Below are positions 651 to 37,332 of a stretch of DNA of 43,348 nt, piece by piece. Both the position numbers and the translations under genes were made by a program. This stretch comes from Pseudomonadota bacterium. Its GTDB lineage: Bacteria > Pseudomonadota > Gammaproteobacteria > Burkholderiales > Rhodocyclaceae. Location: assembly GCA_021849505.1 (NCBI GenBank), contig JAJZSW010000014.1, forward strand, positions 1 to 43,348, given 5' to 3'. Position 1 is the first letter of the stretch. Each line of letters begins with the position of its first letter. The notes below the pieces were generated by a model. The model saw nothing but the letters and a program-made list of their open reading frames with translations, did not search any database and had not been told where the DNA came from.

Positions 651-1627
651 GGTTTCACCCGTGCCAGCTGATCGGCCGGCACGATGCCGTGCTCGGTGAT
701 GATGCCGGCGATCAGCGCCGCCGGCGTCACGTCGAAGGCAGGATTGGCAACCGGCGTATGCAGTGCGCCGAACTCTGCGGCGGAACGCTCCTCGATGGGA
801 ATGTGCATACCATCGGAACAGGCGAAGTCGATCGTCGAGACCGGCGCCGCAACGTAGAACGGCACGCCGTGCGCGTGCGCCGCCAGCGCCTTGAGATAGG
901 TGCCGACCTTGTTGGCCGTGTCGCCGTTCGCCGCGATGCGGTCGGCGCCGACGATCACGCAGTCGACCTTGCCCTGCATCATCAGCAGTCCGGCGGCATT
1001 GTCGGCGATGAAGGTATGTGGAACACCTTCCTGCGCGAGTTCCCAGGCGGTGAGCTGGCCCTGATTGCGTGGCCGGGTCTCGGAAACCCAGACATGCACC
1101 GCAAGGCCGGCCTCATGGGCGGCGTAGATCGGCGCGAGCGCCGTGCCGTGGGCCACGGTCGCCAGCCAGCCGGCATTGCAGTGGGTCATGACCTCGACGC
1201 GCCCCTTGCGGGCGGCGACAGGCTCGAGCACTGCCAGTCCGTGCCGGCCGATGGCGGCATTCGCCGCGGCATCCTCGCGCGCGATGGCACGGGCCTCGGT
1301 CCAGGCTACCTCTTGCCGTACCGCCTGCGCCGACTTTTCGAGAACGCCCCGCATGCGCTCCAGCGCCCAGTGCAGGTTGACTGCGGTCGGCCGCGTCGCG
1401 GCCAGGGTGTCGATGCTGCGTTCAAGGGTCAGGCCTTCCCGCAGGCCCAGCGCGACGCCGAAGGCTGCGGTGGCGCCGATCAGCGGCGCGCCGCGCACCT
1501 GCATGACGCGGATCGCATGCGCGGTGTCGGCCAGCGACCTCAGCCGGACGAAGGCCGTCTCACGCGGCAGCCTAGTCTGGTCTAGTATGACGACGTCACC
1601 GCCGTCTTCGGCGATGGTCACCAGCAT
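647..1627 (-). CDS. mtnA: S-methyl-5-thioribose-1-phosphate isomerase
   Basis: This enzyme of the eIF-2B alpha/MtnA family isomerises the aldose 5-methylthioribose-1-phosphate to the ketose 5-methylthioribulose-1-phosphate in S-adenosylmethionine by-product salvage. It shows RGAPLIG near residue 45, the active-site cysteine in THCNAG (C150) and the active-site aspartate in GADRI (D229). At 326 residues it is slightly shorter than the usual 340-370 because the N-terminus begins right after the secA stop (2-bp gap). An in-frame start inside secA is possible. The aldolase gene follows with a 4-bp overlap. A two-mismatch copy of the window's dispersed 24-bp repeat lies at 1314-1337. It encodes the variable stretch KSAQAVRQ at residues 98-105. 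Confidence 0.93.
   Translation of the reverse strand: MLVTIAEDGGDVVILDQTRLPRETAFVRLRSLADTAHAIRVMQVRGAPLIGATAAFGVALGLREGLTLERSIDTLAATRPTAVNLHWALERMRGVLEKSAQAVRQEVAWTEARAIAREDAAANAAIGRHGLAVLEPVAARKGRVEVMTHCNAGWLATVAHGTALAPIYAAHEAGLAVHVWVSETRPRNQGQLTAWELAQEGVPHTFIADNAAGLLMMQGKVDCVIVGADRIAANGDTANKVGTYLKALAAHAHGVPFYVAAPVSTIDFACSDGMHIPIEERSAAEFGALHTPVANPAFDVTPAALIAGIITEHGIVPADQLARVKP
1314..1337 (+). repeat. Dispersed 24-bp repeat, copy in mtnA (22/24 match)
   Basis: It matches the repeat consensus except for A at position 7 and T at position 13, counting from the T before GCCGTC. It is in plus orientation inside the minus-strand mtnA. The host gene reads it in a frame not used by the other genic copies (KSAQAVRQ), in a variable segment between conserved MtnA blocks. 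Probably an older, diverged copy. Confidence 0.7.
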
Positions 1628-1629
1628 GT

Positions 1630-4362
<2,733 letters not shown>

Positions 4363-7369: not shown

Positions 7370-7382
7370 TCACATTGCCGGT

Positions 7383-7405
7383 GCCGTCCCGCGGGTACTG
7401 ACTTT
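7383..7405 (+). repeat. Degenerate dispersed repeat copy, intergenic (18/23)
   Basis: It has the same first ten bases (GCCGTCCCGC) and the same last six (GACTTT) at exactly the consensus distance, with most of the central seven bases changed. It lies just past the Crp/Fnr gene stop, in plus orientation. It is either a decayed or a variant member. Confidence 0.45.
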
Positions 7406-11795: not shown

Positions 11796-11821
11796 GCGCC
11801 GACTTCAATAAAAGTCGGCGC
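11796..11821. repeat. Hairpin from two facing repeat ends, purC-prlC gap
   Basis: GCGCCGACTT (11796-11805) and its exact complement AAGTCGGCGC (11812-11821) flank a 6-base loop. The right arm is the end of a dispersed-repeat copy and the left arm is the same ten bases in opposite orientation. There is no T-run, so it is not a standard terminator. Confidence 0.7.
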
Positions 11822-11833
11822 TGGCAAGACGGC
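11811..11833 (-). repeat. Dispersed 23-bp repeat, intergenic inverted copy (21/23)
   Basis: It reads as the repeat on the minus strand, with GCCGTCTTGCC instead of GCCGTCCCGCC. It is the only copy in the window pointing this way, and it is paired with a partial opposite copy to form a hairpin. Confidence 0.75.
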
Positions 11834-11840
11834 ACCGGAA

Positions 11841-12722
11841 TCAGGTCGTCAGTCTTTGCAGTGCTTCGCGGTACTTCGCGGCGGTCTTTTCCAGAATCCC
11901 GGCCGGCAGCTTCGGACCGGGCGCCTGCTTGTTCCAGTCCAGCGTCTCAAGGTAGTCGCGCACGAACTGCTTGTCGAAGCTGGCCGGGCTGGTACCCACC
12001 TTGTACGTATCGGCCGGCCAGAAGCGCGACGAATCCGGCGTCAGCACCTCGTCGATCAGGTAGAGCTTGCCGGCCGCGTCAAGGCCGAACTCGAACTTGG
12101 TGTCGGCGATGATGATGCCGCGCGTCAGCGCATAGGCCGCCGCCTCGGTGTACAGGCGCAGCGCCGCGTCGCGCAACTGGGCGGCCAGCGCCGGGCCGAT
12201 GGTCTTCTCGACCGTGGCGAAATCGATGTTCTCGTCGTGCGTCCCCAGTTCGGCTTTCGTCGAGGGCGTGAACAGCGGCTGCGGCAGCTTCTCGGCCATC
12301 CGCAGGCCGGCTGGCAGCTTGATGCCGCAAACCTTGCCGGTCGCCTGGTAGTCCTTCCAGCCCGAACCGATCAGGTAACCGCGCACCACCGCCTCGATCG
12401 GCAGCGGCTTGAGACGCTTCACGACGATGGCGCGGCCGCGCACTTGATCACGCTCGCCCGGCGCCACCACGGTTTCGGGATCGATGCCGGTCAACTGGTT
12501 GGGAATGATGTGGCCGAGCTTGCCGAACCAGAAATTGGCCATGGCGGTCAGCACCTCGCCCTTGCCCGGAATCGGATCGGGCAGGATCACATCGAAAGCG
12601 GACAGGCGATCGCTGGTCACGATCAGCATCCGGTCGTCGCCGATGGCATAGTTGTCGCGCACCTTGCCGCGGCCGAGCAGCGGCAGACTGGTGATGGTCG
12701 ATTCGTAAAGGGGGGTAGTCAT
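11841..12722 (-). CDS. purC: Phosphoribosylaminoimidazole-succinocarboxamide synthase
   Basis: SAICAR synthetase of de novo purine synthesis, which joins CAIR and aspartate using ATP. The start is ATG 12722 ([25 protein letters not shown]), giving 293 residues of the long (yeast-like) subclass. GRGKVRDNY, the ATP-binding start, [19 protein letters not shown] and DTKFEFGL with [13 protein letters not shown] are diagnostic. A TTG start at 12767 would add a non-family extension. A 9-bp inverted repeat ends 2 nt before the ATG (see its own entry). The tRNA-Thr terminator lies just upstream. Confidence 0.96.
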
Positions 12723-12724
12723 CG

Positions 12725-12758
12725 AAAGCTCGCAAGGTTGGACAAACAAGCGAGCTTT
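12725..12758 (-). promoter_or_regulatory. Leader hairpin abutting the purC start codon
   Basis: AAAGCTCGC and GCGAGCTTT form a perfect 9-bp inverted repeat with a 16-nt loop, ending 2 nt before the purC ATG. The only GAG-like ribosome site is inside the stem. A TATAAA box overlaps the distal arm, so part of the repeat may instead be promoter or operator. Confidence 0.5.
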
Positions 12759-12763
12759 ATAAA

Positions 12764-12792
12764 CCAAAACGGCCCCCGTTGCCGGGGGCCGT
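12764..12792 (-). terminator. Terminator downstream of tRNA-Thr
   Basis: A 10-bp stem, ACGGCCCCCG and CGGGGGCCGT (12769-12792), with a 4-base loop. On the minus strand it is followed by TTTT. It ends the tRNA-Thr transcript about 6 nt after CCA. Confidence 0.85.
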
Positions 12793-12797
12793 GAAAC

Positions 12798-12873
<76 letters not shown>

Positions 12874-12883
12874 AAGCGTTGCA

Positions 12884-12889
12884 ATTATA
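12884..12889 (-). promoter_or_regulatory. -10 box of the tRNA-Thr promoter
   Basis: A perfect TATAAT on the minus strand lies 10 bp before the mature tRNA 5' end. The nearest -35 candidate, TTGCAG, has only 14-bp spacing, so the -35 is weak or unclear. Confidence 0.55.
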
Positions 12890-12919
12890 CAAGCAAGTCA
12901 CTGCTGCAACTACGAACGA

Positions 12920-15900
12920 TCAGCGCGTCAACTCCCTCCAGTACAACCTTCTGACCTTTGAACTCAACGGAAGCTCAGGATTCCCAATCTGCGGATACTT
13001 CGCATCCGATGTCGTCACGATCGTAACCACCTTGCCATTGGGAAGCTTGATGGTGTTGATGCCAACGATCAAAGCATTGCCAATCAGCGTCATCTGATTG
13101 CTAGCCGCCAGCTTGGTGTCTCTCGGCCATGGATCGATGAAATAGAGCCAACTCTTCCCTCCGATGTTGCATACGTTTGGATCAGGAATATTGCCAGGGA
13201 CGGTCCACCAACCCATCTGATACTTTGGATCGACATTGACTCGCTCGCCCAACTCCGCATCCAGATCCATGTACCAACCGATGTTGTCATCGACCATGGC
13301 GGTGTAGGAAATCGACCTAGTACCAGCACTGCCGGAGAATCCCTGTTCTTTTACATTGGGGTGCGTACGGAAATTTCCGTAGGGTGGAGAAGTCAGGTCG
13401 TCCTTGATCGCGTACAACGACATCTTGTCAGTTGTTGCGATATCGGAGGAACCGAAGTACTTGCCCGTACCGATCAGAACAACCCTTCTTGGAGCCCCCC
13501 CGATCTTCACCTCGGCCAACTCAGGTTTGGTCGTGACCGGTTGCGTCGGCGCTCCGGCGACCTTGCCGAGCGTTGCAAGTTTGACCACCGATCCGGTCGT
13601 CGTGGTGATATCGAAGCGCCAAACATTGCCATCCAGATCACCGCCATACACATGCTGGGTGGAATTGTCGTACATCGTGTTATCCACCCAGTTGCTGATC
13701 TTGGCGATCCCGCTCCTGGCTGGATCAGTCACGCTATTGTCAGTGACGATCTCCTTGATCTTGGTGCCGGTTACCGCATTGATGACATACAAACGCCCCT
13801 TGCCGTCCCCGCCCCCCGCGTCATTGTTGTAGCCGGAAGCCACCACTACCACCCATTGGTCCGACATCTTGGTGATGATCGGGTTGCCGTAGGTATAGCC
13901 GAGGTTGGCGTCCGTAAACTCCCACAGTAGCGCAGGGCTTGCCGGATTGGTGACGTCGAGTGCGTAGTAGGCCTTGCCACCCTTGCCCAGGCCACCGACC
14001 AGGATGGTCTTCCACTGGTTGGCGTTATTGCAGGGAGGAGAGGAACAGATGTCTCCAACCACGATCGGACCATCCACGTAGAAGCGGTGATTGACCGAGT
14101 AGGCCTTGTCGGCCAGTTTATAGAGGTTCGGGATTACCGCATTCGGCACGAAGGCCCACATTTCCGCACCGGTATCGCCGTTGAAGGCATGCAGCATGCC
14201 GTCGTTGCCTCCAGCATAGACGACCGACTGGCGGTCCTTATTGTTTTCAGCATAGATTTCATACTTGCTGTCGGCATACTTGAAGGGTGGCTTCTTCACG
14301 TAGACTGGCGCGGCATTGACGATATCTCCGAGCACATGCTTGCGGTCGCGATAGAGCCGATAGGTATTGCCGCCCTGATCTTCATGCTGCGTCTGACCGC
14401 GGATATAGGCGATGATCGAGGTTTGCGTCGCCTGTCCCTGCTCCGCCGACGTCATCTCAGCCCATTGCGACAGCGCCCCGTTAGGATTGTCCGTTCCGGG
14501 GTTGAAATTCTTTGCCGCGACATAGGCCGACAGATTTGTTGCGTTGAACGCCTTCAGCGTGCCGCCAGAAGCGAAATGAATTGTTCGGGTATCGCTTGTC
14601 CCGGACACCCGGCCATCCAACTGGGCTTGAGCCGACCAGATCGAATTCTCGGATACCTGGCCGGTCGACAGGTTGATTTCCCGGGCCTGGATATCGCCAT
14701 CCCAATCGACAGTGGTGTACATCGCCACATAGGCATAGTTGTCGCCCGCAACCGGTTCGAGGTTGGATGTCGCTGCCGCGGCAGCGGAAGCGGTACGCGC
14801 CGAAACTCCGGCCAGTGCTTTTTGCAGGCCGCTGGCCATGGCTTGCGGCGTACTGGCCGAGAAATACTTGCCTCGCCCATTGACGGCAGCATGCCAGAGA
14901 TCGTCGACGCGTGTGAGGTTCTCGTCGGGCATCGGATCGGGCCAGATTTTGGTGCCCTGCTTGAGTGCATCGAAGTCCGGGCAGCCACCGGAGTCGTAGT
15001 TTTCACAATACTTGAGCGTGCCATCCACTCCCAGTCCAAGGGTAAAAGTCGTCATGTGCTGCCAGCTTGCGGTATCGCTTCCCGCCCCAGGAACATTATT
15101 TTCGCATACGTTGTAAGTCGTACCGCCGACTGATGCTCCCGTGCAATTTCCTAATTCAGAAGTGCGCAAGTCAGTCTGGTAGTAGTACATGGCAACATCA
15201 GAAAGGGAGTTCGATGTGCCACCCGTTGTCGTATTCGTTGTCGCCACAAATTCTGATGCAGTGGGATTCGGGCTAGGAATAGAGCTTGACCAAGTCGTGG
15301 AACATACAACCACAGTCGTAGCACTACCATGATTAGTCCAGGAGCTTGATGTTGCTGGCCCAGCCGGCTCAAGTGGAGTAGTGACGGTTTGCCGCTGCTC
15401 TTGTTTGAATACAGACCTCCTGCTGCCAGAGCAGCCGCTTGTGCTGCTGGTGTAGTTGTATCGGCGATAGGTATCGACCCGATTACTTGTCGTACCATCC
15501 CACATCGGCTTCGCGGCGGAACCATCCTGGTTGCCTAACGCAGTCGAACCATCGATCTGATAACCGGCTGCACCGTTCCAGAAACCGTCCGTTGTCAGAA
15601 TCGTGAAGTTCTGCTGACAGGAATATTGCACGGGATCAGTTCCGACTTTCCCTGCGAATATGCGTCCTGCCTTGGATAGTGCCGCGCGTAGCGGTGTGCC
15701 GCCATCGGCGGAGGCCTTGTAAATTTTTTGGTACAAGGTGGTTCGCTGCGTGCAACCTGGATCCCCGGCACAAAAATCATTGATATTTTGAAATTCGTCG
15801 TTCGTCGTATTCGTACCGGTATAGCTATGCGTCGTATAGCCGATTCGGTAGTTTTGCGGATCTATCAGGGTTTTTAGCGCGGTTCCCAAGGCCGTTTTCG

Positions 15901-16528
15901 CGGTATAGATTCGAATACGGTAGTAGCTGTACCAGTTGGCGAAATTCTGGCGCTCGGAACTTCCCACCGTCACTTTCGTGAATTTGCTGGTGTTGATTTC
16001 GCCGTTGCACTCCTTGTAGAAGTTGGTCGATGTATCGACGTTTCCAGCCGAAGTGTAGGTATAAGACATTGTCGGTTGCGTGCCCGAATAGTTGTAGTAA
16101 TACGCCGCCTGCTCGGTATCGTCACCGCCACCCCAACTTGTGGTGTCGTCATAGGCCTTGAACTTTGTCGAAAGGTTGACCTTCGCGGAAGCCGAGTCAA
16201 AACCGTTGTAAGGCGCGTTGAAAAAATCAACATCTGGATAGGATGCTCCATCCGCGTTTACCGGCGGTTTATAAGTCACTGCAGGGTTGTAGTAGATGCC
16301 ATTGCACTGCGCCGTCTTGTAGCCCACCTTGGTGCGTATGCCACGCACATGATCAGGCATGTGTGTCCAGCCCATCGACCCGGAATCGTCGAGGATGATC
16401 ATTACATTCGGCTTGACCTCGCCGCTGGAACCCGAAGCGAGCGGTTTGTCGGCAAGATCGATGGTGGCTGCTCCGGCGGATAAAGCAAGGCCGAGAAAGG
16501 CTGCGAGGATAAGATGTTTGGCTTTCAT
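12920..16528 (-). CDS. pilY1: Type IV pilus adhesin/assembly factor PilY1
   Basis: A 1202-residue exported PilY1 protein. ATG 16528 is chosen because GAGGAG precedes it. A signal peptide of about 21 residues is followed by a von Willebrand A region whose MIDAS motif starts at DDSGSM (about residues 47-52). A large variable central part follows. The C-terminal half is the conserved PilY1 beta-propeller, with SVVYAGGNDGMLHAF, EMWAFVPNAVIPNLY, KTILVGGLGKGG and the terminal RRLYWRELTR. Calcium-site-like NNDAGGGDGKG lies in the propeller. PilY1 promotes pilus extension, sits at the pilus tip with minor pilins and acts in adhesion and surface sensing. It is the last gene of the minor-pilin operon, and the composition is visibly less GC-rich than flanking genes. 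Confidence 0.95.
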   Translation of the reverse strand: MKAKHLILAAFLGLALSAGAATIDLADKPLASGSSGEVKPNVMIILDDSGSMGWTHMPDHVRGIRTKVGYKTAQCNGIYYNPAVTYKPPVNADGASYPDVDFFNAPYNGFDSASAKVNLSTKFKAYDDTTSWGGGDDTEQAAYYYNYSGTQPTMSYTYTSAGNVDTSTNFYKECNGEINTSKFTKVTVGSSERQNFANWYSYYRIRIYTAKTALGTALKTLIDPQNYRIGYTTHSYTGTNTTNDEFQNINDFCAGDPGCTQRTTLYQKIYKASADGGTPLRAALSKAGRIFAGKVGTDPVQYSCQQNFTILTTDGFWNGAAGYQIDGSTALGNQDGSAAKPMWDGTTSNRVDTYRRYNYTSSTSGCSGSRRSVFKQEQRQTVTTPLEPAGPATSSSWTNHGSATTVVVCSTTWSSSIPSPNPTASEFVATTNTTTGGTSNSLSDVAMYYYQTDLRTSELGNCTGASVGGTTYNVCENNVPGAGSDTASWQHMTTFTLGLGVDGTLKYCENYDSGGCPDFDALKQGTKIWPDPMPDENLTRVDDLWHAAVNGRGKYFSASTPQAMASGLQKALAGVSARTASAAAAATSNLEPVAGDNYAYVAMYTTVDWDGDIQAREINLSTGQVSENSIWSAQAQLDGRVSGTSDTRTIHFASGGTLKAFNATNLSAYVAAKNFNPGTDNPNGALSQWAEMTSAEQGQATQTSIIAYIRGQTQHEDQGGNTYRLYRDRKHVLGDIVNAAPVYVKKPPFKYADSKYEIYAENNKDRQSVVYAGGNDGMLHAFNGDTGAEMWAFVPNAVIPNLYKLADKAYSVNHRFYVDGPIVVGDICSSPPCNNANQWKTILVGGLGKGGKAYYALDVTNPASPALLWEFTDANLGYTYGNPIITKMSDQWVVVVASGYNNDAGGGDGKGRLYVINAVTGTKIKEIVTDNSVTDPARSGIAKISNWVDNTMYDNSTQHVYGGDLDGNVWRFDITTTTGSVVKLATLGKVAGAPTQPVTTKPELAEVKIGGAPRRVVLIGTGKYFGSSDIATTDKMSLYAIKDDLTSPPYGNFRTHPNVKEQGFSGSAGTRSISYTAMVDDNIGWYMDLDAELGERVNVDPKYQMGWWTVPGNIPDPNVCNIGGKSWLYFIDPWPRDTKLAASNQMTLIGNALIVGINTIKLPNGKVVTIVTTSDAKYPQIGNPELPLSSKVRRLYWRELTR

Positions 16529-16538
16529 GGCGCACTCC

Positions 16539-17177
16539 TCAGAGAGCAATAACAGTTTGGATCATTGCGGAGGTATTGCGCGGACCGTCGACGCGCGTGG
16601 TGATGCGGTAATAGATCTGGCTGGGGCCGGAAAGCGGCGTCGCACCGTAACTGCCACCCGTTTTGGTGCTGCTGCTATCGCTGCCTGCCTGTCCTTGCAA
16701 CCGGGAGCACTGGATGGCATTGGGCGAGCCTGGCGAATCGCACATGCGGTGTATGACAAAGCTTGCCATATAACCATCCACCAAGCTTTCGGAACCTACA
16801 GCTACTGCCAACATGTTGCATCCGCTTTGTGCAGTGCCATTCGGATCCCAGACTGCATCATCATCCGTTGAATCCGTCTCGCCCGTCAGGTCGCACATAT
16901 CCATCCTGCTGGCATAATAGCCGGCCGCCTTGACGTCATTATCGAGCGACGCACTGTTGGATGTCAGCCAAGTGACCGCCTGCTCTGTACCGGCGTCGGC
17001 GATCTGCACGCTGGTCTGCCGGAAAGCCAGATTGCCGGATACCACCAGGCCGGTATCGACCGATCGCATCAAAGCGACACCTGCCAGCGAGATGGCGACG
17101 AGAGCAATCAGTGCGATCAGCAGCACGATCCCCGACTGGCGCCGAACAATTCGTGCAACGGTATGGTCTGATTTCAT
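16539..17177 (-). CDS. pilX: Type IV pilus minor protein PilX
   Basis: A 212-residue PilX-type minor pilin. The N-terminus has a basic leader and RRQSGIVLLIALIALVAISLAG, a class III-like signal with glycine before the hydrophobic helix but without the glutamate at position 5. That matches PilX proteins. GGAG precedes the ATG. The body has the paired cysteines and GNLAFRQTSVQIADAGTEQA common to PilX N-termini. It is 10 bp upstream of pilY1 and 3 bp after pilW. PilX works with PilV, PilW, FimT-type pilins and PilY1 in a tip complex that primes pilus assembly. Confidence 0.9.
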   Translation of the reverse strand: MKSDHTVARIVRRQSGIVLLIALIALVAISLAGVALMRSVDTGLVVSGNLAFRQTSVQIADAGTEQAVTWLTSNSASLDNDVKAAGYYASRMDMCDLTGETDSTDDDAVWDPNGTAQSGCNMLAVAVGSESLVDGYMASFVIHRMCDSPGSPNAIQCSRLQGQAGSDSSSTKTGGSYGATPLSGPSQIYYRITTRVDGPRNTSAMIQTVIAL

Positions 17178-17180
17178 CGG

Positions 17181-18257
17181 CTAGTAACTCCAGATCAGAT
17201 TGCGGATCGGGATGATGGTCGTATAGACCTTGTAACGATAGTGGCGCTGCTCGTCGGTGAGTGCGCGCACCGGCGACGCATCGTCGTTGGCCGCGTCGAC
17301 TTCGCCCCACAGCGTCAGGGTGGCAGGACTCACCATTTCTTTTTCATACTGGATACTGCGTGCCACGATCGCAATGCGCAATGCGCGCACGCGCATGATG
17401 TCGGTTGAACTCGGATTGCTCCAGTCACCGCACTTCGATGCCGCAGTCGCGTCGCACCAGTGGGCGATCTGCTGGCTGCCGGCATCCACGATGCCATACT
17501 GCGCCTGAAGATCGATGATCTGATCGACCAGCGGCGACACGGCTCCGACGATATTGTCGATCTCGGTCAGCCGTTCGTTCAAAATTACGAAGCGCCGCTG
17601 GATGAAACTGCCCATGTTGATGACGACATCACCGATACCATAAGTCGGAGCAATCGCATAAACATTATTCGGATTCGGCGGGTTGTAGAGGTATTGTCCC
17701 GGATTGTGTTGCAGATTCCATCCATTGCCAGTCAATTGCGGGTCTTGGGACATTTGCATTAATGTGCATATCTTGCTGCCATCCGCCGCGCCAACGACAA
17801 ACACCATTGCCTGCTTTAGGCCTGCCGTGGCGTCAGCGGTGATTTCAGCGGACGTATTCGGCATATTCTTGACGATCGAGGTTGGCAGCGCACCTACTTC
17901 GGCACTGGATCGGACAAAATCGATGGTATCCGGCCCGGCGCCCCCATCGGTGATGCGAATCGGCAACAAAGCGCCGCCGTTCGAAATCGTCACGCCGTTG
18001 TAGTGAATATTGATACCCAGCGGGCACATGAGCTTGCCTCCGACCAGCAAGCCATATCCTGCCTGGCGAACCTCACGCTCGATAGATGTGAGCGCCACGG
18101 CGCCATTGACCTGAGCATCCGATCCGCTGCCGCTGGTACGCTTCTGCCCTTCGAAAACGGCCATGACCTGCTGGATCACCAGTGCCGCCAGAGATCCAAT
18201 TAAAAGCGCGACCAGCAATTCGATCAGGGTGACGCCTCTTTGCACAGTACCTTTCAT
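17181..18257 (-). CDS. pilW: Type IV pilus minor pilin PilW
   Basis: A 358-residue protein with an N-terminal prepilin signal, MKGTVQRGVTLIELLVALL, that should be cut by PilD between glycine and valine, with glutamate at position 5 of the mature protein. A long membrane helix, the conserved GGSGSDAQVNGA-like stretch and a C-terminal region ending in YTTIIPIRNL are typical of PilW. It is the largest minor pilin of the cluster, consistent with a position near the pilus tip. Confidence 0.92.
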   Translation of the reverse strand: MKGTVQRGVTLIELLVALLIGSLAALVIQQVMAVFEGQKRTSGSGSDAQVNGAVALTSIEREVRQAGYGLLVGGKLMCPLGINIHYNGVTISNGGALLPIRITDGGAGPDTIDFVRSSAEVGALPTSIVKNMPNTSAEITADATAGLKQAMVFVVGAADGSKICTLMQMSQDPQLTGNGWNLQHNPGQYLYNPPNPNNVYAIAPTYGIGDVVINMGSFIQRRFVILNERLTEIDNIVGAVSPLVDQIIDLQAQYGIVDAGSQQIAHWCDATAASKCGDWSNPSSTDIMRVRALRIAIVARSIQYEKEMVSPATLTLWGEVDAANDDASPVRALTDEQRHYRYKVYTTIIPIRNLIWSY

Positions 18258-18266
18258 GTAGGCGCC

Positions 18267-18629
18267 TCAATTATTCACATTGATAAAGCCGACGGCGACG
18301 AACTCACGCTCGCTTGCGTCCTGAGGACTTTGCCAGTTAACTGTGACTTCTACCCGGTTGCCTGCGACGGCAACGGTACGCCTGCCACTTGGCAAGTCGT
18401 CTATGTCAGTTGTTCCAACGTAATTTCCGATATTGGTTGGATCGCCCCAAAGCCGCGACAAGGCTGCGCTTGCGACGAAACTGGCGTCGGCGCGGTACTT
18501 GGCCTCCGAGGTGGTTTGAATAGCCACCGCCTGCAGGCCGACGACGGCCAGCACGCCGATCGAAAAAATCAGCACGGCGACCAGAACCTCGATCAGTGTT
18601 GCACCTTTTTGCATTCGGGACTGTTTCAT
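18267..18629 (-). CDS. pilV: Type IV pilus modification/minor pilin PilV
   Basis: A 120-residue minor pilin. ATG 18629 overlaps the fimT-type gene's stop by 4 bp (ATGA), which decides the start. The prepilin signal is MQKGATLIEVLVAVLIFS, with cleavage after glycine and glutamate at mature position 5. The LAVVGLQAVAI segment is the usual PilV N-terminus. It has no long C-terminal domain. Part of the co-directional minor-pilin operon. Confidence 0.88.
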   Translation of the reverse strand: MKQSRMQKGATLIEVLVAVLIFSIGVLAVVGLQAVAIQTTSEAKYRADASFVASAALSRLWGDPTNIGNYVGTTDIDDLPSGRRTVAVAGNRVEVTVNWQSPQDASEREFVAVGFINVNN

Positions 18630-19156
18630 GGGCATTTTCTGACATCCCCAGTGGCTGTGACAGTCGGATCGCACATGATGATCTGCCCGCCGATGCCCAC
18701 CAACAAGCGCAAGTCGCGGGACTTGTCAGCAGGCAGAACCGTTGTCGGCAAGTCGATGTCGATACGCTCTACGGAAGCTGACCCATCGATGTTCGCCCGC
18801 CTGCGGCCCAAACCATCGAAGGTGACGCGAGTAGTGTTGTCCGGCGTGACGGCAATCACGACATCCGCCGTGCCTTCCCCCGCCGAGCGTGTTTGTACAT
18901 CGGTACCCGATACCGTGCGAACCATCCATCCCGTACCACCAGTCAATACGAACTCGACCAAATCGTTGCGCCGCACCGCTTCTGCTCGCGCAAGCTGCAG
19001 ACCCGCCAACATGCTTTCGCTTGCGGTCCTGATTCGGCTGTTGGCCAGCCATTCCGTAGTCATAGGCAGGCCCACGGCAATGATGATCGCGATCAAGGCA
19101 ACAACAATCATTGCCTCGATGACCGTCACACCACGCTGTGCAGCGCGCATCAGCAT
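18626..19156 (-). CDS. fimT: GspH/FimT-family minor pseudopilin
   Basis: A 176-residue GspH/FimT-type minor pilin. The signal [19 protein letters not shown] is cleaved after glycine. [25 protein letters not shown] is the characteristic FimT/GspH helix after the membrane segment, and a beta-rich globular domain follows. ATG 19156 has AAGGG at 6-7 nt. ATG 19150 would share TGATG with the upstream pilin stop and shorten the leader by two residues. FimT proteins in some bacteria bind DNA at the pilus for uptake. That role cannot be judged from this sequence alone. Confidence 0.88.
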
Positions 19157-19548
19157 GATTCGCCCTTGCGTGTAATCCAGCAAGTCAATCCATTGCCCCA
19201 TGGCGTCGCCGATGTACGCGCGTTGTTTTGGTCGATCGTATAGGTGAAGCCAGCCATGCCGCTTGTTCCAGTCGCCGTAATGGTGAATGTGGTTGCTGTC
19301 GTAACACAACCAAAATTGAAATTCTTGCCATTACCTGGACAGGCCGCACCAACGTAGGTTCTGTTATCCTGAAACCATTGCTCCATGGCGATCCGCCCCT
19401 GCCCCAACCCCCCGGTTGCCTCGGGAATGTTTCCGCGCCTGACATAATCCCGATAGGAAGGGAGTGCCACCGCCGCGAGAATTGCGACGAGCGCCACGGC
19501 GATCATCAGTTCGATGAGGGTAAAACCGAATTGGGTTGGCTTTTTCAT
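19150..19548 (-). CDS. pilE: Type IV pilin PilE-like (minor pilin)
   Basis: A 132-residue type IV pilin with the signal [32 protein letters not shown] (cleavage between glycine and phenylalanine) and the proline-containing N-terminal helix. [15 protein letters not shown] and a C-terminal cysteine pair follow, resembling ComE/PilE-type minor pilins of betaproteobacteria. AGGAGT precedes the ATG. It is the first gene of the six-gene minor-pilin cluster. It is short for a major pilin, so the minor role is preferred. Confidence 0.88.
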
Positions 19549-19569
19549 GGCAGCACTCCTTTTTCATGC

Positions 19570-19593
19570 ATTAGATTAGTCCGATGGCATCGG
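19570..19593. promoter_or_regulatory. Possible minor-pilin operon promoter with palindrome
   Basis: Upstream of the pilE-like gene a TCTAAT box on the minus strand (19570-19575) is followed on its upstream side by the perfect palindrome CCGATGGCATCGG (19581-19593). No good -35 is seen at 17 bp. It may be an activator-dependent promoter. Weak evidence. Confidence 0.3.
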
Positions 19594-19662
19594 CAAGACC
19601 ACCCTGCTCCGACGAACGGCAACTTGCGGCAGTCAAACGGTAGCCAGGCCAAGGGCCAACAG

Positions 19663-20589
19663 TCAAATCAAAGCTGATGGCAAAGGGAAGCGGACCCCCT
19701 CATCCTCACGCCTGATATCCGGCAAGGATGCTCCAGTCAGTCGAGCAACCGCTTCGACGACCTCATTCACGAGAGATTCCGGGGCGGATGCACCCGCTGT
19801 CACACCGATGCGCCACGTGGCAACAAACCAGCCGGGGTCGATCTCGGCGGCACGATCGATCAGGTAAGCACTCGCCCCTTGCTGGACAGCCACTTCTCGA
19901 AGACGGTTCGAGTTCGAGCTGTTCTGCGAACCCACGACAAGGATTACGTCGCAGCTTTCAGCCAAGCGCCTGACCGCATCCTGTCGGTTTTGCGTCGCAT
20001 AGCAAATATCGTCCTTTTTCGGACCGACGATCTTCGGGAAGCGCCCCTTCAAGGCAGACACGATGTTCGCCGCGTCATCGACCGAGAGTGTCGTCTGCGT
20101 CACATAGGCCAAGGGTGCCGTGCCGTCAGGGCCGACTTTCAGGGCGGCGACATCGGCAACACCTTCGACCAGATGCATGCCGCCGTCGCTCTGTCCCATG
20201 GTGCCTTCGACCTCGGGATGGCCCTTGTGGCCGATCATCACGACCTCGCGGCCGTGCTTGCGGTGGCGCTCGACTTCCAGATGCACCTTGGTGACGAGCG
20301 GGCAGGTCGCGTCGAAGACCTTGAGCCCGCGCCGCTCCGCCTCGGCGCGGACCGCCTTCGGGACGCCGTGCGCGCTAAAGATGACCGTCGCGCCGTCGGG
20401 CACTTCGTCAAGCTCATGGACGAAGATCGCACCCTTCGCCTTGAGGTTGTCGACGACGAAGCGGTTATGCACGACTTCGTGCCGCACGTAGATCGGCGCG
20501 CCGAACTTCTCGAGCGCGCGCTCGACGATGGCGATGGCGCGCTCGACGCCGGCGCAGAATCCGCGAGGATTGGCAAGCAGGATTTCCAT
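19663..20589 (-). CDS. ispH: 4-hydroxy-3-methylbut-2-enyl diphosphate reductase
   Basis: The last enzyme of the MEP isoprenoid pathway, an iron-sulfur reductase that makes IPP and DMAPP. It is 308 residues with [13 protein letters not shown] (first cluster cysteine), [20 protein letters not shown] (second) and [12 protein letters not shown] plus a mid-protein cysteine (third). The start shares TGATG with the fkpB stop. It ends the run tsaE-amiC-ribF-ileS-lspA-fkpB-ispH. Residues 151-158 (KVGPDGTA) are encoded by a three-mismatch copy of the dispersed repeat, just before the conserved [11 protein letters not shown]. dxs and ispA of the same pathway lie 11 kb away. Confidence 0.96.
20116..20139 (+). 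repeat. Dispersed 24-bp repeat, diverged copy in ispH (21/24)
   Basis: It differs from the consensus at positions 7, 11 and 15 and encodes KVGPDGTA, in the same frame as the exact KVGAGGTA copies. It is in plus orientation in a minus-strand gene. Either an old copy under protein-level drift or a chance resemblance. The matching frame and orientation favour the first. Confidence 0.55.
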
Positions 20590-21496: not shown

Positions 21497-24290
<2,794 letters not shown>

Positions 24291-26516: not shown

Positions 26517-26980
26517 TGCCGCCCCCGCTCGCTCGCAGCCTCGATGCTGGCTTGCCGGCCAGTGCCGGTATGGACGAGCCGAATCCGCAGGTCGGCGTCG
26601 GGCAGGTACGGCCGTGCCCGATCCGGCCATTCGACCAGACAGATCCCGCTATCGGAGAAGTATTCGTCCAGGCCTGCATCGAGAAATTCTTCCGGAACAT
26701 TGAACCTATAGAAATCAAAGTGATATAAGTTTAATCCAGAAATTACGTAAGGTTCAACCAGGGTGTAGGTAGGGCTTTTTGCCGTCCCGCCAGCGCCGAC
26801 TTTGCGCAACAGTCCGCGCACCAGCGTCGTCTTGCCCGCGCCGAGGTCGCCTTCGAGGTAAATAACGGCGGCGGGGCGCTGATCTTGCGGCAGGCACGCA
26901 CCGAGCAAGGCACCGAGCGCCTGTGTCGCCGCCTCGTCGGGCAACGCAAATTCACGGCGGTTATCATCGGCAGCATGCAT
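26453..26980 (-). CDS. tsaE: tRNA threonylcarbamoyladenosine biosynthesis ATPase TsaE
   Basis: An ATPase partner of TsaB/TsaD in making t6A on ANN-reading tRNAs. The start is ATG 26980, giving 175 residues. Walker A GDLGAGKTT (about residues 44-52), SPTYTLVEPY, NLYHFDFYRF and the Walker B-like LVEWPDR are clear. The start codon lies in the palindrome ATGCAT, whose other strand is the queG start. The dispersed repeat encodes KVGAGGTA (residues 60-67) immediately before KSPTYTL. From memory, E. coli TsaE has the same segment length here, so the repeat may have replaced rather than lengthened sequence. Confidence 0.95.
   Translation of the reverse strand: MHAADDNRREFALPDEAATQALGALLGACLPQDQRPAAVIYLEGDLGAGKTTLVRGLLRKVGAGGTAKSPTYTLVEPYVISGLNLYHFDFYRFNVPEEFLDAGLDEYFSDSGICLVEWPDRARPYLPDADLRIRLVHTGTGRQASIEAASERGRQWLATLPASIDAISSGAAAPS
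26781..26803 (+). repeat. Dispersed 23-bp repeat, perfect copy in tsaE
   Basis: A perfect copy preceded by T, in plus orientation in minus-strand tsaE, read as KVGAGGTA (residues 60-67) between the Walker A helix and the SPTYTL motif. Confidence 0.92.
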
Positions 26981-28012
26981 GACTGGATTGCTCTGAAGGA
27001 AAGGATACGCGGCTGGGGGCAGGGGCTCGGCTTCGGCATGGTCGGCTTCGCCGGCAGCGATCTGGGAGTTGCCGAACAAGGCCTGCTGGACTGGCTCGCG
27101 GCCGGCTGCCACGGTTCGATGGATTATATGGCGCGCCACGGCACGAAGCGCGCGCGGCCTGCCGAACTGGTGCCGGGCACGCAGGCGGTAATCGTCTGCC
27201 GCATGAATTACCTGACCGCCACATCGGGGTGCCGTCCCGCCAGCGCCGACTTTGCAGAGATATCCCGCTACGCTCTCGGCCGCGATTACCACAAGCTGCT
27301 GCGCAACCGTCTGCAGAAGCTCGCCGACCGGATAATGGCCGAGGTCGGCGCTTTCGGCTGCCGCGCATTCGTCGACTCGGCGCCGGTCATGGAAGTGGAA
27401 CTGGCGCAGAACGCCGGCCTCGGCTGGCGCGGCAAGCACACGCTGCTGCTGTCGCAGACCGGCTCGTGGTTCTTCCTCGGCGAGCTGTTCGTCGATCTGC
27501 CGCTGCCCGCCGACGGGTCAATCGAGCCGCATTGCGGCACCTGCACCGCCTGCCTCGACATCTGCCCGACACAGGCATTCATCGCGCCCTGGCGGCTGGA
27601 CGCGCGGCGCTGCATTTCCTACCTGACCATCGAGCATCCCGGCAGCATCCCGGAGGAATTGCGGCCGCTCATGGGCAACCGCATCTACGGCTGCGACGAC
27701 TGCCAGATCGTCTGTCCGTGGAACCGCTTCGCGACGCCGACGCGCGAAGCGGACTTCCTGCCGCGCAACGGGTTCGATCACGCAACGCTGGCAGAACTGT
27801 TTTCCTGGACGAAAGCCGATTTCAACGACCGGCTGGCCGGCTCCCCGATCCGGCGCATCGGCCACGAACGCTGGCTGCGCAATATTGCTGTTGCGCTGGG
27901 GAACGCCGCGCCATCGGAAAAGGCCAGAGCCGCCCTGCTCTCGCGCGCCGACTGTCCGTCGGCGCTGGTGCGCGAACACGTTGGCTGGGCCTTGTCCCGC
28001 TACCCTGGCTGA
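26975..28012 (+). CDS. queG: Epoxyqueuosine reductase QueG
   Basis: A cobalamin-dependent iron-sulfur enzyme that makes queuosine in tRNA from epoxyqueuosine. ATG 26975 gives 345 residues. YALGRDYHKLLRNRLQKLA, the catalytic-aspartate region GCRAFVDSAPVMEVELA and two 4Fe-4S motifs, CGTCTACLDICPTQAF and YGCDDCQIVCPWNRFA, are clear, and a HEAT-like C-terminus follows. An upstream start at 26885 would run inside tsaE and is not family-like. The dispersed repeat encodes CRPASADF (residues 86-93) in the variable stretch before SRYALGRDYH. The 3' end overlaps the opposite-strand rhodanese gene by 13 bp. Confidence 0.95.
   Translation: MHDWIALKERIRGWGQGLGFGMVGFAGSDLGVAEQGLLDWLAAGCHGSMDYMARHGTKRARPAELVPGTQAVIVCRMNYLTATSGCRPASADFAEISRYALGRDYHKLLRNRLQKLADRIMAEVGAFGCRAFVDSAPVMEVELAQNAGLGWRGKHTLLLSQTGSWFFLGELFVDLPLPADGSIEPHCGTCTACLDICPTQAFIAPWRLDARRCISYLTIEHPGSIPEELRPLMGNRIYGCDDCQIVCPWNRFATPTREADFLPRNGFDHATLAELFSWTKADFNDRLAGSPIRRIGHERWLRNIAVALGNAAPSEKARAALLSRADCPSALVREHVGWALSRYPG
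27231..27253 (+). repeat. Dispersed 23-bp repeat, perfect copy in queG
   Basis: A perfect copy preceded by T. Both element and gene are on the plus strand. It is read as CRPASADF (residues 86-93), a different frame from the ileS, tsaE and prmC copies. Confidence 0.92.
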
Positions 28013-30741: not shown

Positions 30742-31625
30742 GCGACAGCTTCGCCCACTGGATGGCGGCGATCCAGCAGCGTACCGAAAGCGCGCTTGAG
30801 CGCTGGCTGCCGGCAAGCACGACCGCCCCCGCACGCCTGCACGAGGCGATGCGCTACAGCACGCTCGGCGGCGGCAAGCGCATGCGCCCGCTGCTCTGCC
30901 ACGCCGCCGGCGAGGCGCTCGGCGCCGATCCGCAGGCGCTCGATGCCGCTGCCTGCGCGGTCGAACTGATCCACGCCTATTCGCTGGTGCATGACGACCT
31001 GCCCTGCATGGACGACGACGTGCTGCGCCGCGGCCGCCCCACCTGCCACGTCGAATTCGACGAAGCTACCGCCCTGCTCGTCGGCGATGCGCTGCAGACG
31101 CTGGCTTTCCAGGTGATTGCGGATAGTGTGATGCCGTCCCGCCAGCGCCGACTTTCGATGATTGCCCTACTGGCGCAGGCCAGCGGTTCGCGTGGCATGG
31201 CCGGCGGCCAGGCCATCGACCTCGCCGCCGTCGGCACGACGCTGACGCTCGAGGAGCTCGAGTTCATGCACATCCGCAAGACCGGCGCACTGATCCGTGC
31301 CGCCCTGCTGCTCGGCGCGCATTGCGGCGATGCCGATGATGCAACGTTGTCCGCATTGGGTCATTACGCCAATCGCGCCGGCCTGCTGTTCCAAGTGGTC
31401 GACGATATCCTCGATGCCGAAGGCAGCACGGTCACGCTGGGCAAGACCGCCGGCAAGGATGCGGCGCAGGACAAGCCGACCTACGTCAGCATGCTCGGCC
31501 TCGCACGCGCCAAGGAGTTCGCCGCGCAACTGCGCACGCATTCGCACGAAGCTTTGGCCGCCTGTCCGGTGTCCACGACGCGCCTCGCCACCCTGACCGA
31601 CTACATCGCCGACCGCAGCTTCTAA
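30738..31625 (+). CDS. ispA: Farnesyl diphosphate synthase (IspA)
   Basis: A prenyltransferase that condenses DMAPP and IPP to farnesyl diphosphate. It is 295 residues from TTG 30738, which overlaps the xseB stop by 4 bp and has AAGGCGG upstream. ATG 30762 is the alternative. [10 protein letters not shown], the first aspartate-rich motif [28 protein letters not shown] and the second motif VVDDILD are present. The dispersed repeat encodes PSRQRRL (residues 133-139) in the variable loop before [11 protein letters not shown]. dxs follows after 2 bp. Confidence 0.96.
31133..31155 (+). repeat. Dispersed 23-bp repeat, perfect copy in ispA
   Basis: A perfect copy preceded by T. Element and gene are both on the plus strand. 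It is read as PSRQRRL (residues 133-139), a third frame of the same sequence. Confidence 0.92.
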
Positions 31626-31627: not shown

Positions 31628-33481
31628 ATGACTCCACTGCTCGACACCATCAACGACCCGGCCGACCTGCGCGCGCTGCCGCGCGAGCAGCTGCCGACGC
31701 TGGCCGAGGAGCTGCGCGCCTACCTTCTCGATTCAGTGGCGAAGACCGGCGGCCACCTGTCGTCGAACCTCGGCACCATCGAGCTGACGATCGCGCTGCA
31801 CTACATCTATGACACGCCCGAGGACAAGCTCGTCTGGGACGTCGGCCACCAGACCTACGCGCACAAGGTGCTCACCGGCCGCCGCACAGGCATGGCGCGG
31901 CTGCGCATGAAGGATGGTCTCTCCGGCTTCCCGAAGCGCGACGAAAGCCCCTACGACACCTTCGGCGTCGGCCATTCATCGACCTCGATCTCGGCTGCGC
32001 TCGGCATGGCCGTCGCAGCGCGCGACCGCGGCGAGGACCGCCGCGTCGTCGCGATCATCGGCGACGGTGCGATGTCCGCCGGCCAGGCCTTCGAGGCGCT
32101 CAACAACGCCGGGGTGATCGACGCCAACCTGCTCGTGATCCTCAACGACAACAAGATGTCAATCTCGCCGCCGGTCGGCGCGCTCAACAAGTACCTCGCG
32201 CGGCTGTTCTCGGGCCGCAGCTTCAACGCCGCGCGCAAGGCCGGCGAGAAGGTGCTGTCGGTCGCCCCGCCGCTGCTGGAGCTCGCCAAGCGCGCCGAGG
32301 AACACGTCAAGGGCATGTTCGTGCCGGGCACGCTGTTCGAGGAGTTCGGCTTCAACTACATTGGTCCGATCGACGGCCACGACCTCGAAGCACTGATCCC
32401 GACGCTGGAGAACCTGCGCAAGCTCAAGGGTCCGCAGTTCCTGCACATCATCACGAAGAAAGGCCAAGGCTACAAGCTCGCCGAGGCCGATCCGGTGCTC
32501 TATCACGGCGTCTCGAAGTTCGACGCCAGCAATGGCATCGCCTCGGGAAAAGGCGGCGGCAAGCTCACCTTCACGCAGGTCTTCGGCGACTGGCTATGCG
32601 ACATGGCTGCGAGCGACGACCGTCTCGTCGGCGTCACTCCCGCGATGTGCGAAGGCTCGGGCATGACGCGCTTCGCCCAGCAGTTCCCGCAACGCTACCA
32701 CGACGTCGGCATCGCCGAGCAGCATGCCGTCACCTTCGCCGCCGGCCTCGCCTGCGGGGGCATGAAGCCGGTGGTGGCGATCTACTCTACCTTCCTGCAG
32801 CGCGGCTACGACCAGTTGATCCATGACGTCGCGCTGCAGAACCTTGACGTCACCTTCGCCATCGACCGTGGCGGGCTGGTCGGTGCCGATGGCGCGACGC
32901 ACCAGGGTGCCTTCGACCTCTCCTACCTCGCATGCATCCCGAACATGGTGGTCATGACGCCGGCCGACGAGGCCGAATGCCGCCGCATGCTGACCACCGC
33001 CTACCGCCATCCCGGCCCGGCCACGGTACGCTATCCGCGCGGCACGGGACCAGCCGTCCCGCCAGCGCCGACTTTGGACACCATCAAAGTCGGCAAGGGA
33101 GAAATGCGCCGACAGGGCAAGCGCGTGGCAATCCTCGCCTTCGGCACCCTGCTCACTGCCGCACTCGAGGCGGGCGAGGCGCTCGACGCCAGCGTCGCCA
33201 ACATGCGCTGCGTCAAGCCACTGGATATCGACTTGATCAAGCAACTGGCGGACACACATGAATTTCTGGTCACGCTGGAAGAAAACGCGATCATCGGCGG
33301 CGCCGGATCTGAAGTCGCCCGTGCGCTGGAAGCGCTGGGTATCGTCAAGCCGCTGCTGCGACTGGGGCTGCCGGACTGCTTCATCGAACAGGGTGAGCAG
33401 GTACAGATGCTCGCCGAACTGGGTTTGAGCGCCGCGGCGATAGCCGAACGCATCAATAATTTTATCGACCCCATTACTTGA
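31628..33481 (+). CDS. dxs: 1-deoxy-D-xylulose-5-phosphate synthase
   Basis: A thiamine-diphosphate enzyme that condenses pyruvate and glyceraldehyde-3-phosphate, the first step of the MEP pathway. The 617 residues are normal. [19 protein letters not shown], the ThDP motif [19 protein letters not shown] with [30 protein letters not shown] and [18 protein letters not shown] are diagnostic. The dispersed repeat encodes AVPPAPTL (residues 476-483) in the linker between RYPRG and the C-terminal transketolase-like domain ([11 protein letters not shown]). The stop codon overlaps the candidate folE2 promoter. Confidence 0.98.
33053..33075 (+). repeat. Dispersed 23-bp repeat, perfect copy in dxs
   Basis: A perfect copy preceded by A rather than T, read as AVPPAPT (from residue 476). 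Ten bases downstream the host codons for IKVG contain AAAGTCGGC (33086-33094), an exact complement of the element's end, so a 9-bp stem can form. Confidence 0.92.
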
Positions 33482-33506: not shown

Positions 33507-33569
33507 GGGTGACAAAACGACTGGCCGGCATCGATTGGCCCGCGCGCCCAACCCCCTGGAGACATTCCC

Positions 33570-34376: not shown

Positions 34377-34389
34377 TCGACTCCGTAAC

Positions 34390-34433
34390 CCCCAACAAAA
34401 AAAGGACGCCGGAGCGTCCTTTTTTTGTTGGGG
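34390..34433. terminator. Bidirectional terminator between folE2 and rplS
   Basis: A perfect 20-bp stem around a CGGA loop. One arm has seven A and the other seven T before GTTGGGG, so each strand presents a GC stem followed by a T-run. It serves both convergent transcription units. Confidence 0.95.
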
Positions 34434-34443
34434 CAAGGAAGGC

Positions 34444-34824: not shown

Positions 34825-34871
34825 GTCGTTTTCCTTGTCAAATCAAACTACGTTTTCTTACGACCGCAGAG

Positions 34872-35642: not shown

Positions 35643-35664
35643 CCCGGCGCCTACCAGTCTCTCA

Positions 35665-36180: not shown

Positions 36181-36186
36181 CGGTGC

Positions 36187-36441: not shown

Positions 36442-36480
36442 GCAGGACCTCTGGATTCGGTGAGAGATGAAAAGGGCGCG

Positions 36481-36509
36481 ATTTTATTGATTATTTGCGG
36501 GAAATACAA
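36481..36509 (-). promoter_or_regulatory. Candidate promoter of the rpsP operon
   Basis: On the minus strand TTGTAT (36504-36509) and TAAAAT (36481-36486) are 17 bp apart. The -10 overlaps the prmC stop codon. The leader before rpsP would be about 33 nt. Confidence 0.55.
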
Positions 36510-37332
36510 TAGCTTCCGCCCCAGGCCCGCGGCCCCCCGTTGCCCGCAGGATGCCCGCCAGGTCGCGGTGCTGCTCGATCTGGCTGAAACCCGCCGCGGC
36601 GAGCAGGGCTTGCACCGCGGTGTCCTGATCGTAGCCGTGTTCAAGGAACAGCCAGCCCCCTTCCGCCAGCCAGTCGTGGGCTTGCGCCACGATCAGGCGG
36701 ATCCCCATGAGACCGTCTGCGTGATCGGTCAGTGCATCGGCGGGTTCGAAGCGCAGGTCGCCTTGCGCCAGATGCGGATCGCCCGCCGCGACATAGGGCG
36801 GATTCGCCAGGATCAGTTCGAAGCGTTGCGGCGGCAGCGCGGCGAACCAGTCGCTTTCGACAAATTCGACCTGCGCACCGAACCGCTGCGCATTGCCGCG
36901 TGCGACCCCGAGCGCCGCCGGCGACACATCGACGGCCGTCACCCGCGCCTGCGGCAGTTCGAGCGCCAGCGTAACAGCCAGGCAGCCGCTGCCGGTGCCC
37001 AGATCCAGAACCCGTGCCGTCCTGCCAGCGCCGACTTTCGTCTTGGCAACATCGACCAGCAACTCGGTTTCGGGACGCGGGATCAGCACATCCGGCGACA
37101 CGACAAAATCGCGTCCATAGAACTCGCGCACGCCGATCAGGTAAGCAATCGGCTCGCCAGCCTCGCGCCGTGCCACCAACGCGGTGTAATCGCTATCGGC
37201 AGCAACCTCATCGTCGCGATGCGCCTCCAGCCAGGCCGCGTTCCTGCCGAGCACATGCCCGAGCAACAGCCGCGCCTCGCTTGCAGGTATGCGCCGGCGC
37301 GCCTCGGCCAGCAGCGCCGCGATCGTGGTCAT
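36484..37332 (-). CDS. prmC: Peptide chain release factor N5-glutamine methyltransferase
   Basis: It methylates the GGQ glutamine of release factors RF1 and RF2. The 282 residues have an N-terminal helical RF-binding domain and a SAM-binding domain. The latter shows [28 protein letters not shown] and the catalytic NPPYVA. The start overlaps the prfA stop by 4 bp, so enzyme and substrate are coupled. A one-mismatch copy of the dispersed repeat encodes KVGAGRTA (residues 99-106) directly before ARVLDLGTG. Confidence 0.97.
37016..37038 (+). repeat. Dispersed 23-bp repeat, copy in prmC (22/23)
   Basis: One C-to-T change at position 8, preceded by T. Plus orientation in minus-strand prmC, read as KVGAGRTA (residues 99-106), same frame as ileS and tsaE. 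Confidence 0.9.

Follow-up and report, generated by a model that had tools for sequence, protein, structure and literature searches.

A dispersed 24-bp repeat of Rhodocyclaceae that resembles a self-DNA uptake sequence

Why does one short string of DNA recur, almost unchanged, inside unrelated housekeeping genes of the same bacterium? The question is raised by contig JAJZSW010000014.1 of a member of the Rhodocyclaceae (Pseudomonadota; assembly GCA_021849505.1), whose 43,348 nucleotides were analyzed as a whole and are called the window here, and which contains a dispersed 24-bp repeat. We think that this repeat is probably a watermark of 'self' DNA similar to a DNA uptake sequence (DUS), a reading based on its abundance on both strands, its presence within genes as a substitution, its even dispersal, its dialects, and its restriction to one clade.

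Nine copies of the repeat were found in the window. Five of them contain the 23-mer GCCGTCCCGCCAGCGCCGACTTT without a mismatch, at 21637, 26781, 27231, 31133, and 33053, and these positions had been given correctly in the initial annotation, as had a copy with one mismatch at 37016 and two diverged forms at 1314 and 20116, where the 23-mer starts at 1315 and 20117 and shows two and three mismatches, respectively. Exact 24-bp copies on the plus strand lie antisense near the C-terminus of ileS (21636..21659), where the protein reads KVGAGGTA; antisense in tsaE (26780..26803), where the same peptide directly precedes KSPTYTL; sense in queG (27230..27253), encoding CRPASADF; and sense in ispA (31132..31155), in a rarely used frame that gives PSRQRRL. 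The copy in dxs (33052..33075, plus strand, sense, AVPPAPTL) starts with A instead of T, and those in mtnA (1314..1337), ispH (20116..20139), and prmC (37015..37038) are also on the plus strand and antisense to their genes. Eight copies had thus been placed inside named genes, and for seven of these (mtnA, ispH, tsaE, queG, ispA, dxs, and prmC) the name fits the Pfam family found in the open reading frame (ORF); the eighth we take to be ileS, with which ORF size and conservation agree. A ninth copy had been missed. It is on the minus strand (11811..11834; 23-mer at 11811-11833, two mismatches), in the 66 bases that separate the ORFs of a SAICAR synthetase and an M3 peptidase. When the window was shuffled 100 times with its dinucleotides preserved, no match to the 23-mer at up to three mismatches was generated, and the 24-mer is hardly palindromic (-2.6 kcal/mol with RNA parameters). 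The description of a real repeat in housekeeping genes, beyond chance and not obviously palindromic, was therefore upheld; the DUS, a relevant precedent, had not been considered.

The repeat is not peculiar to the window. The source genome (2.75 Mb in 161 contigs, the window being contig 7) contains 512 copies at up to three mismatches (239 forward, 273 reverse), or about 190 per Mb, and the reversed pattern used as a control gave 0 and 0; the 100 matches listed were all exact. To describe its shape, a position-weight matrix was built from 421 kb of this genome, i.e., 20 stretches and the window, and 107 sites with the consensus TGCCGTCCCGCCAGCGCCGACTTT were retrieved, against one site with the reversed control. 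The information fell near background about one base beyond either end, giving a sharp unit of 24 bp with random flanks, in which bases 1-6 and 16-24 form the strongest blocks and bases 7-9, 13, and 15 are more variable. The matrix was trained on the same DNA that was then counted for context and spacing; its use on a complete congener, G017, was a separate application, which yielded 101 sites from 380 kb, as against 0 for the control, and in which bases 7-9 and 21 were weak.

Next, the distribution of the repeat was followed in the source genome and 60 relatives. Within the genus, 18 of 19 genomes contained 311-728 copies, and the remaining one, G006 (87% complete), had none. Outside the genus, 528 copies were detected in G019 (genus g2) and 751 in G026 (g9); in the remaining 16 genomes of the family the count was 0-5, and in 24 genomes of other families it was 0-4, with controls of 0-1. 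A dialect-tolerant pattern was then applied across the order, to 399 genomes from 51 families, including 13 genomes of family f1. Any match was found in 70 of them (controls summed to 0-3 per genome), and more than 10 matches only in the source genome (480), G017 (334), G087 (245), and G002 (179), all from f1, followed by G292 with 10 and G245 with 5. With a broader pattern, 74 of 199 genomes of the family showed a match; tens to hundreds of copies were present in at least one genome of g1, g2, g9, g11, g47, g62, g70, and g88, among them G187 (g88) with 35, and G064 had 33. Genomes of the remaining genera had 0-9 copies (controls 0-1), and near-absence was also seen within g11 and g47 (G194, one copy; G124, two copies). 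As an abundant repeat, it is confined to one clade of the Rhodocyclaceae as defined by GTDB. The two outcomes that had been named as fatal to the repeat, its absence from the rest of the genome and an ancestral string shared across distant genera, were not observed: 512 copies were counted in the genome, and distant genera lacked abundant copies. Sporadic exact or near-exact copies were seen outside the family in G292, G245, G047, G387, and G371, sometimes several per contig, and these are possibly watermarks of DNA received from carriers. The exact 23-mer also occurred in 40 viral-contig stretches (42 copies) among 2.9 million contigs, some of which may represent host flanks.

Names and phylogeny place the carriers in the same group. 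The best IleS matches beyond the source genome came from Sulfuritalea, Sulfurisoma, and unnamed metagenome-assembled genomes (MAGs) of Rhodocyclaceae; Sulfuritalea is filed under Sterolibacteriaceae by NCBI, and the group corresponds to Rhodocyclaceae in GTDB. A copy at up to three mismatches was present in 15 of 80 named loci fetched, most with Sulfuritalea, Sulfurisoma, or Rhodocyclaceae names, and absent at this threshold from those named Azonexus, Herbaspirillum, Paraburkholderia, Pandoraea, and Pseudomonas. The cultured Sulfurisoma sediminicola BSN1 has two such copies in 22.8 kb. Two copy-bearing loci named otherwise, L043 ('Gammaproteobacteria') and L050 ('Burkholderiaceae'), are both from MAGs, and both fell in the carrier clade of the IleS tree. 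This tree was computed from 36 of the 80 named loci, nine loci from the genome set, and the window, leaving 44 rows after two identical ones were dropped, and a locus was labeled as motif-bearing when it had at least two copies at up to four mismatches. All 17 labeled rows were in one clade of 26 rows (support 100/98), and the 18 rows outside it had no copy. The other nine rows of the clade had 0 or 1 copy; absence there is not secure, because some of these loci are short and one belongs to G002, whose genome has 311 copies. The label required 7 changes on the tree, as compared to 13.8 in shuffles. G006 was nested among carriers (99/100), on a long branch of the kind for which the program warns that placement is unsure, and this position suggests that it lost the motif.

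Related genera carry dialects of the repeat with a changed middle, the dialect positions being bases 1, 3, and 13-18. De novo k-mer counts in G028 (g11) yielded GGGACTGACTTT. Consensus sequences were then derived from the fetched stretches and matched at up to three mismatches along with their reversed controls: TGCCGTCcCGCCaGCGCCGACTTT for g1 (106 sites, 3 control), CGCCGTgccGcnGgGACTGACTTT for g11 (29 and 4), nGGCGTcCCGCCaCGgCTGACTTT for g90 (16 and 0), and CGCCGTccCGCCAGCGCCGACTTT for g62 (10 and 1). The consensus differs among g1, g11, and g90, and provisionally in g2 (CGCCGTatCGtCAGCgCCGACTTT; 7 sites, 0 control), g69 (nGCCGTncCgCCAGCGTCGACTTT; 5 sites, 0 control), and g9, whose form AGCACCGACTTT had many copies among the matches listed. 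The pattern scan included short samples of G029, G031, G032, G034, and G035. No dispersed relative of the motif was observed in the k-mer tables of G006, G020-G025, G027, G030, G033, and G036 (16-76 kb each), nor in 40 kb of G064, which has 33 copies genome-wide. A separate observation in G036 (L171, L172, L235, and L236) was that of AACAGCTATA and ACAGCTATAC, with 16 copies each in 76 kb when 0.03-0.04 would be expected. In the window, a weak dialect-like match at 465..488 (plus strand) ends in GACTGACTTT, as the g11 dialect does; another dialect-like match, TGCCGTCCCGCGGGTACTGACTTT, is at 7382..7405 (plus strand), and a weak match, CGCCGTCTCGCCGGCGCAGACATT, at 42501..42524 (plus strand).

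The arrangement of the copies along the DNA was then analyzed. Since genes were called with a crude ORF/GC3 caller, coding fractions are approximate. Of 106 sites in the source genome sample, where about 91% of the DNA is coding, 79 were inside genes, 6 at gene edges, and 21 intergenic; for the 101 sites of G017, the numbers were 67, 7, and 27. The coding sites in the source genome were split between sense (40) and antisense (39), and all six reading modes were used, with frame 1, read as PSRQRRL or SRRWRDG, accounting for 11 of 79 sites and for 8 of 67 in G017. Copies were more evenly spaced than random ones: the coefficient of variation was 0.67 in the source genome, against 0.94 ± 0.08 for random sets (1 of 2000 as low), and 0.65 in G017, against 0.98 ± 0.10 (0 of 2000). 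Gaps shorter than 500 bp numbered 2 instead of 10.4 and 1 instead of 12.3, respectively, and no pair of strong copies within 200 bp, and hence no Haemophilus-like inverted-pair terminator, was found in the 421 kb sample. Strands were balanced in this sample (49 forward, 50 reverse). On the complete G017 chromosome, 100 forward copies at up to one mismatch were uniformly distributed (chi2 1.44, 3 degrees of freedom), and at most 55 of them fell in any half circle, versus an average of 58.7 in random sets, so that no replichore polarity was observed in this one genome.

Even spacing and chromosome-wide presence would also suit a site of nucleoid architecture, and the repeat could be bound by a protein that organizes or segregates the chromosome, dispersed for structural reasons in the manner of KOPS, matS, SlmA, parS, or Chi sites. 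KOPS and Chi are polar relative to replication, and matS and parS are clustered. Unlike the former, the copies in G017 had no polarity, and they were not clustered as the latter are. In addition, a segregation site would not usually show dialects, near-absence from most sister genera, and absence from G006, and a length of 24 bp is considerable for one. We consider this explanation unlikely.

DUS and the uptake signal sequences (USS) accumulate in genomes because fragments carrying them are preferentially taken up and recombined. If the repeat is an uptake sequence, a protein at the cell surface, belonging to the type IV pilus machinery of DNA uptake, would bind it in environmental DNA, and fragments that bear it would be imported and recombined in preference to others. 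Transformation could then spread point mutations that improve the match, up to a saturation of about one copy per 4-5 kb, in places where a change in the protein or the intergenic sequence is tolerated, and the dialects would reflect co-evolving receptors. Parts of a machinery for import were seen in the family: ComEC was detected in 194 of 199 genomes, a frequency without power to separate carriers from non-carriers, and type IV pilin operons were present. In 19 chosen genomes, ComEC was found in 18, and DprA was found in 18, in 17 of them over the cut-off.

Several observations weigh against an uptake sequence. ComEC was not found in the carrier G018 (83% complete), and a clear DprA was lacking in the carriers G114 (none) and G019 (below the cut-off). 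Both proteins are retained in G006, with no copies, as in G194, with one, and their presence in the copy-free G006 indicates that machinery and motif are not tightly linked. ComEA (TIGR00426) exceeded the cut-off in only 1 of the 19 genomes, that of the g88 carrier G187; in 14 others the only match was a frame of 784-1723 amino acids below the cut-off, and 4 had no match. A tblastn search with the G187 protein against 4.4 Mb of fetched DNA returned its own locus only. Among the pilin families searched (ComP_DUS and A1), no receptor separated carriers from non-carriers. Orientation is locally clustered in some contigs, 10:1 in the window and 7:1 in contig C31 (L139-L140). The density of about 190 copies per Mb is below the Neisseriaceae counts given in the accessible text of PMC3630211. 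According to the same text, eight DUS dialects share CTG, whereas no CTG is common to the dialects described here: bases 12-14 are CAG, i.e., CTG on the other strand, in g1 and not in g11 or g90, and bases 17-19 are CTG in g11 and g90 and CCG in g1.

The same population-genetic drive would act on a motif belonging to another channel of gene exchange, such as DNA release from the donor, packaging by a gene transfer agent, or conjugation, and the failure to find a receptor, like the lack of a ComEA match above the cut-off in 11 genomes of the genus, would fit such a motif. Set against this are the nearly universal presence of ComEC in the family and the frequent one of DprA, and the precedents known to us of dispersed motifs that occur within genes and form dialects are uptake sequences. 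This alternative, too, seems improbable to us.

Whether the copies within genes are insertions or replacements was judged by aligning six sites of the window with their orthologs at 56 loci. With identical rows counted once, 166 rows were obtained, 114 of which had at least 10 bases different from the motif. In none of the 166 rows was the ortholog short by at least six residues at the motif; 60 rows were gap-free, 17 were longer by at least six residues, and 45 lacked 1-5 residues, with IspH accounting for 26 of these. The TsaE orthologs were all gap-free (32 of 32, with 1 to 15 mismatches to the motif), as were 8 of 10 for Dxs, and this indicates plain substitution at both sites. Those in IspH, IleS, and QueG are in length-variable loops, and the rows there show only that no unit of eight codons was added. 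Relatives had the motif at up to four mismatches in the same position in 9 of 41 rows for IspH, 7 of 41 for IleS, 4 of 32 for TsaE, 6 of 30 for QueG, 2 of 12 for IspA, and 2 of 10 for Dxs, and L042 and L054 have the exact full 24-mer at this position of dxs. A further set of comparisons drew on 98 loci without the motif, in which 11 of the 79 coding sites were spanned by a homolog; of the resulting 138 pairs, 2 contained a gap of at least six residues and 50 any gap. Between the source genome and G017, the motif was kept at 2 of the 3 sites that had an ortholog in the fetched DNA, a number too small to speak for conservation. The comparison of host genes with repeat-free orthologs, proposed in the initial annotation, thus revealed replacement of host codons, with none of the 166 ortholog rows lacking six or more residues at the motif, and this, along with the gap-free TsaE rows, shows that the copies are substitutions in place. 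The ortholog rows speak strongly against insertion and fit DUS or USS; in the same rows, the Rickettsia palindromic elements (RPE) that had been offered as a precedent found no support.

A mobile or insertional element, of the type of RPE, repetitive extragenic palindromes (REP), or miniature inverted-repeat transposable elements (MITE), that transposed in frame into genes would account for hundreds of near-identical copies, and the 17 rows that are longer by at least six residues, with other in-frame stretches at the same loops, point in that direction. The absence of rows short by at least six residues, the gap-free TsaE alignment, and the large gaps in only 2 of 138 pairs, though some gap was present in 50, contradict it, as do the near-lack of a hairpin, the sharp 24-bp edges with random flanks, the avoidance of close pairs, and the dialects, and we regard it as very unlikely. 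Longer stretches of 23-27 residues, in frame, G+C-rich, and partly palindromic, were seen at the same loops in L227 and L223 (ileS) and in L226 and L042 (queG); they have more of the look of insertional repeats than the 24-mer has. Convergence at the protein level, with codons selected for a peptide such as KVGAGGTA and not for DNA, could explain why four of the six reading modes are favored, and is nevertheless next to impossible, as all six modes are used for unrelated peptides and copies occur between genes, which contradicts it (21 of 106 in the source genome and 27 of 101 in G017, with about 9-10% of the DNA non-coding).

Candidates for a receptor were looked for among the pilins. ComP_DUS (PF16732) was discarded, as its matches, in 53 of 61 genomes, were PilE-like pilins of carriers and non-carriers alike; the match in the window, at 19150-19548, is also a PilE-like pilin. 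Pilin family A1 was discarded as non-discriminating, being present in 156 of 199 genomes of the family. It is one of two pilin families, A1 and A2, that a survey of prepilins in six genomes found to be common to the source genome, G017, G028, and G194; neither was seen among the G006 prepilins fetched, but three G006 matches (contigs 33 and 55) are outside that set and may include them. The window encodes a minor-pilin operon, pilE-fimT-pilV-pilW-pilX-pilY1 (12920-19548), with no strong motif copy: from 11834 to 20116, no copy at up to three mismatches was found, only a weak match of the matrix at 17823. With its counterparts in G006 (no copy of the repeat) and G022 (two copies), this operon shares 53-82% identity, as compared to 26-56% with those of seven congeners with an IleS identity of 82-91%, and this makes it a poor candidate for the receptor. 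It looks as if it had been replaced by a foreign type through horizontal exchange. At its edge lies a tRNA-Thr (cgt) gene (12798-12873), a possible boundary of the exchange. Elsewhere in the window, positions 34390-34433 form a perfect 20-base inverted repeat with a loop of four bases and A/T runs, likely a bidirectional terminator.

With somewhat less assurance, we are inclined to see the repeat as a third self-DNA uptake code, which would have evolved independently of those in Neisseriaceae and Pasteurellaceae. The motif, bipartite and 24 bp long, has genus dialects and is found in Sulfuritalea-type Rhodocyclaceae/Sterolibacteriaceae; its receptor would be neither a recognizable ComP nor part of the main minor-pilin operon, and some nested lineages would have lost the code. 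In the accessible text of a paper from 2025, Neisseriaceae and Pasteurellaceae are the only families said to use such motifs (PMC12616744). The initial annotation did not recognize the repeat as a described family, and no description was found among the open-licence literature matches listed. That literature held no paper on a DNA uptake sequence in Rhodocyclaceae or Rhodocyclales, or on natural transformation of Sulfuritalea; in the broader literature, no title among the matches listed concerned uptake motifs of this clade, and four motif strings, when looked for in article text, gave none that, by title and among the matches listed, dealt with bacterial repeats. None of five names of the group that were looked for occurred in the accessible text of PMC5217627. 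A third family, among free-living environmental bacteria, would provide an independent test of why uptake codes evolve. Its dialects within one clade and apparent nested losses would offer a view of receptor-motif co-evolution, and the partners of gene exchange in nature could be traced with it. As a watermark in the sequence, the motif could also mark DNA that has left the clade by transfer.

Compared to known systems, the repeat shares with RPE its position inside coding sequences of essential genes, and differs from them in that it is 24 bp long, hardly forms a hairpin, replaces codons instead of being inserted, and is read in all six modes. Two likenesses in sequence may be coincidence: the 24-mer starts with TGCCGTC, a stretch that the neisserial DUS also contains, and its reverse complement, AAAGTCGGC, is similar to the Haemophilus USS, AAGTGCGGT, except for a missing base. 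USS are evenly spaced, as the repeat is. Like the repeat, they are a dispersed motif with strong and weaker positions, and they too have dialects, two of which are mentioned for Pasteurellaceae in the accessible text of PMC12616744. The USS consensus in the accessible text of PMC5217627, AAGTGCGGT, is found on neither strand of the motif consensus, and the inverted-pair terminators are missing here in 421 kb. The DUS of Neisseriaceae are shorter, with about 9-12 nucleotides in PMC12616744 against 24 bp here; in addition, the repeat differs in that no two copies lie less than 200 bp apart in the 421 kb sample, and in having no ComP homolog that tracks the motif (PF16732, 61 genomes). What the two have in common, as far as the accessible text of PMC3630211 goes, is a very large number of copies per genome, dialects that follow phylogeny, and the existence of genomes in the same family without the abundant repeat.

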